Source of the DNA: Paenibacillus borealis
GTDB taxonomy: Bacteria; Bacillota; Bacilli; Paenibacillales; Paenibacillaceae
NCBI RefSeq assembly: GCF_000758665.1
Contig: NZ_CP009285.1
Coordinates: 2,418,001-2,482,000, forward strand
DNA length: 64,000 bases
Reading direction: 5' to 3'
The notes below the pieces were generated by a model. That model saw only the letters and a program-made list of their open reading frames with translations, was not told the DNA's origin and made no database searches. The translations under genes and the position numbers were made by a program. Positions within the stretch are counted from its first letter, which is position 1. Each line of letters begins with the position of its first letter. Below, piece by piece: positions 7,865 to 10,392 of this stretch.

Positions 7865-8800
7865 TCATAGCCAATCCTTCTTGCGGAAGATCACCAGCAT
7901 TCCGCAGCCGAGCGTCACCATAACGGCGATGACTCCATAATAGCCGTACTGGGAATGGGTCTCGGGTATATTGTCAAAGTTCATGCCGTAGATTCCGGTG
8001 ATGACGGTCAGCGGCATGAATATTGTAGTAATTGCCGTAAATACTCTCATAATTTCATTGGCGCGGTTAGCGATACTGGACTGATAAGCTTCACGTAAGT
8101 TGCCCATGAGATCGCGGTACGTTTCAAAGGTTTCAGAGATCTTGACCGCATTTTCATAGATATCGCTGAAATACTTCTGCAGCTGATCGTCGATCAGGCG
8201 GAGGTCTTTCTTGTTGAGCGTGTTGATAACTTCCTTCTGCGGGCCGAGCATCTTCTTTAGCCAGAGAATTTCACTGCGCAGACCGATGATCTCGCTTAGA
8301 TGCGATTTCTTGGTGTGCATGAGGATATCCTCCTCCAGCTTCTCGATCCGCGCTTCAATCCGGTCACCGACGGAGAAGAAGTTGTCAACCACAAGGTCGA
8401 TTAACAGGTACAGGAAACGGTCCGGTTCACTGACCTCCTGCTCCCACAGGATGGGCTTCAGGACGCGCAGCTCATGGATCTTCTGCTTCGTAACGGTAAT
8501 GATGAAATGTCTGCCCAGGAATACGTTGAGCGCACGGAGGAAGATTTCCTCGTCATCAAACCGGATGCTGTTAACTACGATGAAATAATGGCTCTCATAA
8601 ATCTCCAGCTTCGGGCGCTGATCCTCTTCACTGAGACAGTCCTCCACGGCCAGATCATGCAGATTGTACAAAGGCTGGAGCTCCACGAGATCCTCAACAT
8701 CTGCATCAATCCAGTAGAAACCCTCAGCGGGTGCGGTAAGTGTATCCTCAATATTGTCAATAGTCGTAAAAACCCCTGCGTTCACCAGCCGGATTTTCAT
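7865..8800 (-). CDS. corA: CorA magnesium/divalent cation channel
   Basis: CorA forms a pentameric inner-membrane channel for Mg2+ (also Co2+, Ni2+). The 311-residue product has the long soluble N-terminal domain, the extended stalk helix rich in Glu/Lys (about 150-240) and two C-terminal membrane helices; the first ends in the selectivity signature 'GIYGMNF' (GMN near residue 270) and the second ends in the basic tail 'FRKKDWL'. The start is ATG 8800, eight bases after AAGGAG; GTG 8809 would sit directly on the ribosome site. Transcription appears to start far upstream (about 9056) through a leader with a small ORF and a terminator candidate. Confidence 0.95.
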   Translation of the reverse strand: MKIRLVNAGVFTTIDNIEDTLTAPAEGFYWIDADVEDLVELQPLYNLHDLAVEDCLSEEDQRPKLEIYESHYFIVVNSIRFDDEEIFLRALNVFLGRHFIITVTKQKIHELRVLKPILWEQEVSEPDRFLYLLIDLVVDNFFSVGDRIEARIEKLEEDILMHTKKSHLSEIIGLRSEILWLKKMLGPQKEVINTLNKKDLRLIDDQLQKYFSDIYENAVKISETFETYRDLMGNLREAYQSSIANRANEIMRVFTAITTIFMPLTVITGIYGMNFDNIPETHSQYGYYGVIAVMVTLGCGMLVIFRKKDWL

Positions 8801-8817
8801 CTGATTCACTCCTTCTG

Positions 8818-8837
8818 TCCCTGGTCTTCTCCAGGGA
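8818..8837 (-). promoter_or_regulatory. Hairpin next to the corA ribosome-binding site
   Basis: TCCCTGG/CCAGGGA, 7 bp with a 6-base loop, lies about five bases before the AAGGAG of corA and could modulate its translation. Confidence 0.4.
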
Positions 8838-8858
8838 TATGCTAATTAAAGCACAGAG

Positions 8859-8954
8859 AAAAAATCAGCTTGGCCGGTGGTACAATCATTGATGAAGGCC
8901 AAAAGACGGTCCGAGAGCATGAAGAAGAACTGCCCCCGCCGCCGGCAAGCTGAT
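8859..8954 (-). terminator. Candidate attenuator terminator in the corA leader
   Basis: On the minus strand ATCAGCTTGCCGGCGG (8954-8939) can pair with CCACCGGCCAAGCTGAT (8880-8864) with one bulge and one G-U pair, followed at once by a six-U tract (8864-8859). A competing short pairing TTGGCC/GGCCAA (8903-8898 with 8875-8870) uses the same 3' arm. The 58-base loop contains the last part and stop codon of a small leader ORF, so ribosome position could decide termination. Confidence 0.5.
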
Positions 8955-9014
8955 GTTAATCCTGTGTGGTTGTTCTTTCTGCACGCTTATTCGCGAGCCC
9001 GGGTCGCCTTCCAT
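8886..9014 (-). CDS. Small leader ORF upstream of corA (42 residues)
   Basis: ATG at 9014 is preceded by AGAGGTGAGAGAAG and the frame runs 42 codons to TGA at 8888-8886, 85 bases before the corA start. The peptide starts MEGDPGSRIS and ends PSFGLHQ; it contains five prolines and no recognisable domain. Its 3' half forms one arm of the candidate terminator. By analogy with the mgtL and corL leader peptides of enterobacteria it could couple translation to Mg2+ level, but this is inference. A plus-strand frame over the same bases has no ribosome site and is less likely. Confidence 0.4.
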   Translation of the reverse strand: MEGDPGSRISVQKEQPHRINISLPAAGAVLLHALGPSFGLHQ

Positions 9015-9062
9015 TCTTCTCTCACCTCTTCTTTTCGCCGTTTATGGTTGAAACACTTGTCT

Positions 9063-9091
9063 AGTATAACGCCGGGGTATGCCTCTTTCAA
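9063..9091 (-). promoter_or_regulatory. SigA-type promoter of the corA leader
   Basis: On the minus strand TTGAAA (9091-9086), 17-base spacer, TATACT (9068-9063). Predicted start near 9056, which places the small leader ORF and the attenuator inside the corA transcript. Confidence 0.65.
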
Positions 9092-9166: not shown

Positions 9167-9224
9167 GAATTTTAAGAAAAGTATCTTCGGATACTTTGGG
9201 ATAACCCAACTGAATACAGCTAAA

Positions 9225-9365
9225 TCTTATCAAGAGCAGGTGGAGGGACTAGCCCGATGAAACCCGGCAACCGGCGTGTGAACGCACGGTGCTAATTCTT
9301 GCGGAAGCTTTGCAGGACGTTATTCGTCCGGCGGAAGTTCTCTGGCAGATGAGAGAGGCGCATAT
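9225..9365 (+). ncRNA. SAM-I (S-box) riboswitch
   Basis: Classic S-box signature: 'cttatcaagagcaggtgga' and 'gggactagcccgatgaaacc', then 'cggcaacc', a variable P3/P4 region with 'cacggtgctaattc', and the closing 'tggcagatgagag'. It binds S-adenosylmethionine and promotes termination in the hairpin at 9380. It lies directly before metA, so methionine synthesis is switched off when SAM is plentiful. Confidence 0.97.
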
Positions 9366-9410: not shown

Positions 9411-9474
9411 GTTGCTCAGCAAGACATTTTACCGCCAAGCGGAACCTAATTTCAGTTAAGGAGTGAATACAGCA

Positions 9475-10392
9475 ATGCCTATTAAAATTCCCGACAGCCT
9501 TCCGGCCAAAGAAATATTATCCGGTGAGAATATATTTGTAATGGATGAAAGCCATGCCTTTCATCAGGATATCCGTCCTCTGCGGATCGCCATCCTGAAT
9601 CTGATGCCGACCAAGGAAACCACTGAAACGCAGCTGCTGCGCCTTATCGGGAACTCGCCGCTTCAGGTGGACGTTGTTCTGCTGCATCCCAGCTCCCATA
9701 CCTCGAAGAATACTTCGGCAGAGCACTTAAAGAGCTTTTACACAACCTTTGATGAGATCAGCGACCGCCGTTTTGACGGCCTGATCGTAACCGGTGCTCC
9801 GGTAGAACAGATGGAGTTCGAGGATGTTAACTACTGGGAAGAGCTGAAAGTGATTTTTGAATGGAGCAAGAAGAATGTAACCTCGACCATGCATATCTGT
9901 TGGGCCGCGCAGGCAGGGCTGTATTACCACTTCGGCGTGCGCAAGGTGAGTCTGCCGGATAAATGCTTTGGAGTGTTTCCGCATACGCTGAGCCATAATA
10001 ATGTGAAACTGCTGCGCGGCTTCGACGAAGTATTCCATGTGCCGCATTCCCGTCATACCGATGTCTCCCGCGAAGATATAGAGAACAATCCGGATCTGCA
10101 GATTCTGGCGGAATCGGAGGAAGCCGGGGTATACCTGGTCTCTACGCATGACGGCAAGCAGATTTTTGTGACCGGACATTCGGAATATGACCCGTTCTCC
10201 CTGAAATGGGAGTATGACCGGGATATTGCCAAAGGCATGGATATAGAGATTCCGAAGCACTATTATCCAAAAGATGATCCGACGCGTACCCCACCGGCCG
10301 TCTGGCGCGCCCATGCCAACTTATTATTCGCTAATTGGCTCAATTACTATGTATACCAGGAGACACCCTACGATATCGGAGCGTTTATTTAA
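9475..10392 (+). CDS. metA: Homoserine O-acetyltransferase MetA
   Basis: First committed step of methionine synthesis from homoserine. The 305-residue protein begins [11 protein letters not shown] as usual for MetA. Counting from ATG 9475, the catalytic Cys is C142 in 'HICWAAQ' and the His/Glu pair is H235/E237 in 'GHSEYD'. Residue 111 is Glu in 'GAPVEQ'; in this family Glu111 correlates with acetyl-CoA use and Gly111 with succinyl-CoA, so the enzyme is predicted to be an acetyltransferase despite the family name. AAGGAG lies about 12 bases before the ATG; an in-frame GTG 9463 overlaps it. Controlled by the SAM-I riboswitch upstream and followed by metI. Confidence 0.95.

Follow-up and report, generated by a model that had tools for sequence, protein, structure and literature searches.

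The window analysed here is the whole stretch of 64,000 nucleotides of Paenibacillus borealis (contig NZ_CP009285.1), and all coordinates are those of the window. Its minus strand carries corA, preceded by a leader with a promoter, an upstream open reading frame (uORF) with its own Shine-Dalgarno (SD) sequence, and several RNA segments that are predicted to pair with one another:

9063..9091, minus strand: sigma-A-type promoter, TTGAAA-17-TATACT, 10 of 12 consensus matches
9022..9028, minus strand: uORF SD sequence, GAGGTGA, 7 nt upstream of the uORF; an SD-like stretch also precedes the uORFs of relatives
8886..9014, minus strand: uORF, 42 codons, ATG start, MEGDP..., MEGDPGSRISVQKEQPHRINISLPAAGAVLLHALGPSFGLHQ (from the list of open reading frames and the relatives)
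9000..9011, minus strand: uORF codons 2-5, Glu-Gly-Asp-Pro (acidic-x-acidic-Pro), candidate ribosome-destabilising signal (from conservation in 237 loci)
8942..8966, minus strand: region 2, within the uORF, CACAGGAUUAACAUCAGCUUGCCGG, putative partner of region 3 (duplex, swap and fold analyses)
8852..8877, minus strand: region 3, CCGGCCAAGCUGAUUUUUUCUCUGUG, putative partner of region 2 or, with 8868-8857, of region 4 (duplex, swap and fold analyses)
8839..8854, minus strand: small hairpin GUGCU/AGCAU between regions 3 and 4 (94.3% of cells paired, 42 sequences)
8818..8837, minus strand: hairpin UCCCUGG/CCAGGGA adjoining the corA ribosome site (paired cells: 78.9% in one part, 80.7% in the other)
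8801..8816, minus strand: region 4, corA SD sequence and spacer, AGAAGGAGUGAAUCAG, partner of region 3 in the proposed OFF state
7865..8800, minus strand: corA, Mg2+/Co2+ channel of 311 amino acids (TIGR00383, 247 bits; PF01544, E 4.9e-69)

A first-pass annotation, made from the sequence alone, had reported the promoter, the 42-codon frame with a good ribosome site and a hairpin CCCUGG/CCAGGG next to the corA ribosome site; the first two were found as described and the hairpin is present in the fold. Promoter-like sites occur twice in the 701-base region (0.7 in shuffles), and by eye a similar TTGAAA...TATACTAGACAAG stands upstream of many relatives. The annotation had also seen no M-box consensus, and no M-box above cut-off was found in the window. 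A hit of the L31-Firmicutes leader (RF03156) at 8809-8858 on the minus strand was rejected as probably due to chance, with 20.2 bits against a gathering threshold of 33.3 and a 16-nt insertion needed for the match; elsewhere in the genome the same family scored 14.4-18.8 bits at nine places, the corA place not among them. The protein bL31 counters intrinsic ribosome destabilisation (IRD) in E. coli. Divergent from the corA leader, on the plus strand at 9224-9355, lies a SAM riboswitch (RF00162, 68.6 bits), which precedes an open reading frame at 9463-10392 that by eye resembles homoserine O-succinyltransferase (metA).

Distribution and start of the upstream reading frame

DNA upstream of corA was collected from 242 loci, 237 from the order of the window and five from the outgroup family f32. 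A protein search supplied 110 loci, 20 more came mostly from other families, 11 from a class-wide draw and the remainder from an order-wide draw; the 237 loci include some genomes present in two collections. Tests were run on 108 clusters at 85% identity, reduced to 107 in the accessibility, ribosome-edge and uORF rank tests (one dropped) and to 102 in the duplex shuffle and swap tests (six dropped), the uORF end lying too near corA in the clusters left out. The uORF finder accepts only frames of 20 codons or more that have an SD-like stretch, and openness of the frame is partly built into its counts. ATGGANGGNGA was present at 110 of 110 loci of the protein-derived set; in the second set the finder returned 17 of 20, and the remaining three were recognised by eye (one TTG start, two reading MDAEP/MDAGP). 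In the enlarged set it returned 234 of 242, two of them with wrong starts (L182, L189). Widened after the misses were known, and then admitting MDGNP, MDAGP and MGDDRP, it returned 237 of 242, the five misses being the outgroup family.

The uORF precedes corA, 119 to 366 nt upstream of it, at all 237 loci of the order, the kind of conservation whose absence the first-pass annotation had named as refuting its reading. The order draw gave this corA (E<=1e-100) in 128 of 139 genomes and the uORF in 128 of 128, with loci matched by hand. The leader is real and was found at every sampled corA locus of the order. No such uORF was found at any of the five corA loci of family f32 (corA 56-62% identical to the query) or, by eye, before the two other corA paralogues of the genome. 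At one outgroup locus (L169) inspection by eye showed an SD-preceded open reading frame, MKTSDPDQ, with acidic-Pro-acidic at positions 5-7, possibly by chance. One record titled Neobacillus mesonae (L077) holds a Paenibacillus-type corA (84% identical) with a typical leader; its label may be wrong.

The conserved peptide start, the main clue to the signal, was absent from the first reading. An acidic residue stands at uORF position 2 in 236 of 237 loci, at position 4 in 234 and at both in 233; position 3 is Gly in 231, and a Pro occurs within positions 5-8 in 234. Counted by cluster (n=108), the corresponding figures are 107, 105, 104, 102 and 105. The start codon is ATG in 223 of 237. The uORF is constrained in the manner of a coding sequence: GA is nearly invariant in codons 2 and 4, third positions are freer, codon 3 also admits Ala, Ser, Val, Ile and Asp, and an extra residue ahead of the proline is tolerated in frame (MDGDRPRP vs MEGDPSP). 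Among 107 other SD-preceded open reading frames in the same upstream regions, none had acidic residues at both positions 2 and 4. The coding-like constraint and the lack of the acid pair in these control frames make the signal look like an N-terminal nascent-chain motif. The acid pair is broken at four loci (MDGNP twice, MDAGP and MGDDRP), and the Pro at 5-8 is missing at three. Both sampled genomes of genus g95 (L246, L269) have the MDGNP start, with Asn for the second acidic residue, and offer a natural test of the acid requirement.

A strict pattern of the uORF start had one match each in 25 of 59 genomes, 16 of them in front of a known corA place, and a reversed control pattern matched in one genome of the same scan. 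Among the genomes with no match to the strict pattern are G256, G271, G277 and G281, in which the corA uORF has another SD sequence or start. The window's own genome gave 36 matches against 19 for the reversed control; of the 30 that were inspected, only the one before corA had an SD-like stretch and a length of 20 or more codons while lying outside any long frame. Two others in this genome, L146 (17 codons) and L157 (9 codons), have SD-like stretches, are shorter and have no Pro at positions 5-8.

The good SD sequence and the ATG at 223 loci would also fit a uORF that encodes a functional small protein, or whose start merely boosts initiation, the RNA pairings described below then being by-products. 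This is very improbable: only about five residues are conserved while the length varies from 27 to 47 and the C-terminus drifts, the window's peptide has no Pfam or NCBIfam match, and the corA site is predicted to be freer with native than with shuffled uORF RNA. A regulatory uORF could, on the other hand, answer another signal, namely proline or arginine tRNA charging or general translation stress instead of Mg2+. Arg is common at positions 5-7 beside the Pro at 5-8, and mgtP of Salmonella is described as answering charged tRNA-Pro (PMC8092293). Such a signal is rather unlikely, given that Pro at position 5 is found in only 195 of 237 loci, that the acidic positions 2 and 4 are kept more strictly than any single Pro position, and that the controlled gene is a Mg2+ channel.

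Competing RNA pairings and the terminator question

Region 3, which is pyrimidine-rich, can pair either with region 2 inside the uORF (2:3) or with region 4 at the corA ribosome site (3:4), with examples in CAUUCCUUAUGC/GCAUAAGGAGUG (L046, L048), GAUCUGUUCUUUUGCGCCC/GGUGCAGAAGGAGUAGAU (L054) and, in the window, CUGAUUUUUUCU/AGAAGGAGUGAAUCAG. The 2:3 duplex, of the uORF with the following RNA, outperformed dinucleotide shuffles (p<=0.05) in 64 of 102 clusters, the 3:4 duplex in 32 (5.1 expected for each); this level was missed in 38 and 70 clusters, respectively, and the window's own duplexes fell short of it (p 0.134 for 2:3, p 0.100 for 3:4). Swapping partners between species weakened pairing on average: the native partners outdid the median swap in 95 of 102 clusters for 2:3, in 88 for 3:4, and still in 77 when region 3 was set against the spacer minus the SD core. 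All three swap tests (2:3, 3:4, spacer alone) gave p<=0.0002 by a permutation that ignores descent among the clusters. The overlap of both duplexes in region 3 was discarded as evidence: it was seen in 100 of 102 clusters, no better than random placement (98.8), because the duplexes are long.

Within the clade of the window (42 sequences) helix 2:3 is almost invariant and has no changes on both sides. The outer six pairs of 3:4 are paired in 99.6% of cells and the inner four in 66.7%; the 3:4 set together with the hairpins has 19 both-side-changed cells against 10.6 in shuffles, of which the hairpin next to the corA site holds 13 and 3:4 six. RNAalifold on 12 macerans-type leaders gave a covariation term of +0.54, which is no gain, with both-side changes in five of 32 pairs. 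At the level of compared sequences the conserved uORF, its acidic start and two pairings that have co-evolved are demonstrated; this backs from the relatives the earlier view of rival pairings that share an arm before corA.

The consequence for the corA start site was predicted by folding, with removal of the uORF as a stand-in for ribosome coverage. Mean predicted accessibility of the corA SD sequence was 0.364 when the uORF RNA was left free from codon 8 onwards and 0.243 with the uORF removed, the former being higher in 89 of 107 clusters (p 5e-11) and 18 going against the trend. Shuffling the uORF gave 0.244, with the native sequence higher in 89 of 107, and shuffling the downstream part raised the uORF-removed value to 0.309 (71 of 107). 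The native uORF ranked above all 19 of its shuffles in 47 of 107 clusters (5.4 expected) and in the upper half in 92. When the leading edge of a ribosome was moved along the uORF, accessibility was 0.35-0.38 up to nt 42, 0.34 at nt 51, 0.27 at nt 60 and 0.24 at nt 69; early loss of the ribosome would therefore leave region 2 open, and reading on would close it. The folding thus predicts that masking of the uORF hides the corA ribosome site. The window's own leader switches under constraint, covering of nt 1-33 giving 2:3 and covering of the whole uORF (nt 1-129) giving 3:4; the two forced states differ by about 2 kcal/mol, and SD-core accessibility hardly changes (0.36 free, 0.35 masked, mean of six SD letters), a weakness in the case for the switch.

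Taken as an average over the clusters and not for every cluster, the computations thus yield mutually exclusive folds tied to translation of the uORF. They also yield a predicted sequestration of the corA ribosome site like that of mgtQ, which in the window's own leader appears in the constrained folds and not in the mean SD-core accessibility. Comparison and folding both lend good support to the view that translation controls the hiding of the corA ribosome site, a view that is quite likely correct.

The first-pass annotation had read the same region as an intrinsic terminator with an antiterminator. Its stem AUCAGCUUG.CCGG/CCGG.CAAGCUGAU (8954-8942 with 8877-8864), followed by UUUUUU, does exist, with 13 pairs and one bulge in place of the 16 pairs claimed, and its loop of more than 50 nt covers the end of the uORF, stop codon included, as had been stated. 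The proposed rival TTGGCC/GGCCAA occurs in the window, and exact complementarity is kept in only 18 of the 42 clade sequences, the window among them. Region 3 of the present analysis is the terminator arm of the annotation plus the U-run.

Transcription attenuation, in which the 2:3 stem and the U-run form an intrinsic terminator and uORF translation decides on its formation, draws support from this stem, from at least five T within 9 nt after GCTGA in 32 of 42 clade members, and from the folding of the 106-nt terminator piece, which at z -3.7 was matched by one of 200 shuffles; for the 257-nt leader as a whole, stability is unremarkable (z -0.6). A terminator scan limited to loops of 3-8 did not return this stem. 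Across the order a stem with a conserved U-run was not found, and an intrinsic terminator was rejected as the order-wide core, the U-run being a feature of the clade: between uORF end and corA, runs of at least five T occur in 19.4% of the 108 cluster representatives against 17.4% in shuffles, and runs of at least four in 48.1% against 42.1%. Other clades have C-rich or interrupted tracts, and the long loop and the poor conservation of the TTGGCC rival also argue against attenuation. Moreover, a terminator that closes corA upon early drop-off would shut off the importer just when low Mg2+ calls for it. Attenuation as the main mechanism is thus unlikely; added termination in the window's clade is kept as a rival. 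For the supposed 3' arm, an anti-Shine-Dalgarno segment is the better reading; it can pair with the start region of corA as well and happens to be U-rich in this clade. The underlying observation of the annotation is confirmed, and its terminator interpretation only partly supported.

Proposed mechanism and known leaders

We propose that translation of the uORF operates the leader as a switch for corA. Ribosomes on the uORF would make a short nascent chain that is acidic at positions 2 and 4 and then has a proline (Met-Glu-Gly-Asp-Pro). At low Mg2+ this chain would destabilise its ribosome, as judged from MgtL and MgtQ, and make it drop off after only a few codons. From about nt 45 onwards the uORF RNA would then be free, region 2 would pair with region 3, and region 3, so held, would be kept from reaching the corA ribosome site, with the result that CorA is made. 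At high Mg2+ the ribosome would read through region 2 and release region 3, which would pair with region 4, the corA SD sequence and spacer, and shut down corA translation. The switch as a whole, with drop-off from the uORF at low Mg2+, 2:3 as ON and 3:4 as OFF, is considered probable. Ribosome drop-off, Mg2+ as the signal and the direction of control are inferred by analogy, and for Mg2+ sensing by ribosome destabilisation the analogy is strong enough to make it fairly likely.

The analogy is with enterobacterial leaders. The EPDP start of MgtL (Glu2, Asp4) is a destabilising motif (PMC11282234), and in mgtQ Asp2 and Glu5 favour a stem 2:3 over a stem 3:4 that hides the ribosome-binding site (PMC8092293). 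The corA leader shows two sequence features of an IRD-type leader, namely a short uORF with its own ribosome site ahead of a Mg2+ transporter gene, and closely spaced N-terminal acidic residues with Pro. With mgtQ, located between mgtC and mgtB of Salmonella (PMC8092293), it shares the short uORF before a Mg2+ transporter gene, the acidic residues near the start and, in prediction, a 2:3 pairing that exposes and a 3:4 pairing that hides the downstream ribosome site. The mgtQ uORF differs in having 8 amino acids, with Asp2 and Glu5, and in lying within an operon, whereas the present uORFs have 27-47 amino acids, are acidic at 2 and 4, and stand in front of corA, in its 5' leader, in a Gram-positive order. 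With MgtL of E. coli and Salmonella mgtA (PMC11282234, PMC11552253) it shares acidic-x-acidic-Pro at residues 2-5 (EPDP there, EGDP here) and, as proposed here, repression by efficient and induction by poor translation. In these sources the output of MgtL is Rho-dependent termination, whereas SD hiding is the better supported output here.

The enterobacterial CorL/corA leader and the gammaproteobacterial 'corA motif' (PMC11552253, PMC6429828) also have a uORF (CorL) and alternative folds before corA; for CorL, PMC11552253 reports fewer acidic and Pro residues and a Rho-based mechanism. No Rfam family reaches its cut-off in the window's leader, and so the corA motif (PMC6429828) appears to be another thing. 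The likeness to the mgtL/corL type, which had been noted in the first reading, is backed by the relatives. By layout, with no claim on descent, the corA leader probably works most like mgtQ, with an MgtL-like start.

Rho is encoded in this genome (665 bits), so that a contribution of Rho as in MgtL and CorL is conceivable: translation of the uORF would expose or hide a Rho loading site, in addition to or in place of SD hiding, much as MgtL and CorL are reported to act in E. coli (PMC11552253). The pairing between region 3 and the spacer has co-evolved beyond the SD sequence, which a Rho model does not need, and control of this kind is distinctly unlikely.

Magnesium control in the order and meaning of the leader

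The textbook example of Mg2+ control in this phylum is the M-box riboswitch. Like the present leader, the M-box (ykoK, RF00380) heads Mg2+ transporter genes in Bacillota; the control proposed for corA differs from it in resting on translation and not on an aptamer. The genome has no M-box match above cut-off and no MgtE. Stricter filters left 17 of the 139 sampled genomes of the order with an M-box, two among the 11 that lack this corA and 15 among the 128 that carry it; from these counts, M-box and corA as mutual replacements were rejected, there being no clear exchange, and the M-box is rare in the order and not swapped one for one with corA. In genus g97, the two genomes G191 and G218 combine an M-box with the absence of this corA (E<=1e-100).

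Among the open-access matches listed, nothing was found on a Paenibacillus corA leader or on a Gram-positive IRD leader. Mg2+ sensing by ribosome destabilisation is described, among those matches, for enterobacterial leaders; PMC11282234 mentions ribosome destabilisation in itself for eukaryotes too. That a Gram-positive order has independently evolved IRD Mg2+ sensing as the standard control of corA, with the M-box rare there, the ribosome as the sensor and the hiding or freeing of the corA ribosome site as the readout, is a view for which we see the chances as even. The acidic-x-acidic-Pro start recurs here before a different transporter and in a Gram-positive order, and if the proposal is true the ribosome's own dependence on Mg2+ would have been put to use as a sensor more than once. 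The leaders would then provide about a hundred divergent natural variants for working out which properties render a nascent chain destabilising, and Bacillus-type translation systems would allow a clean test.
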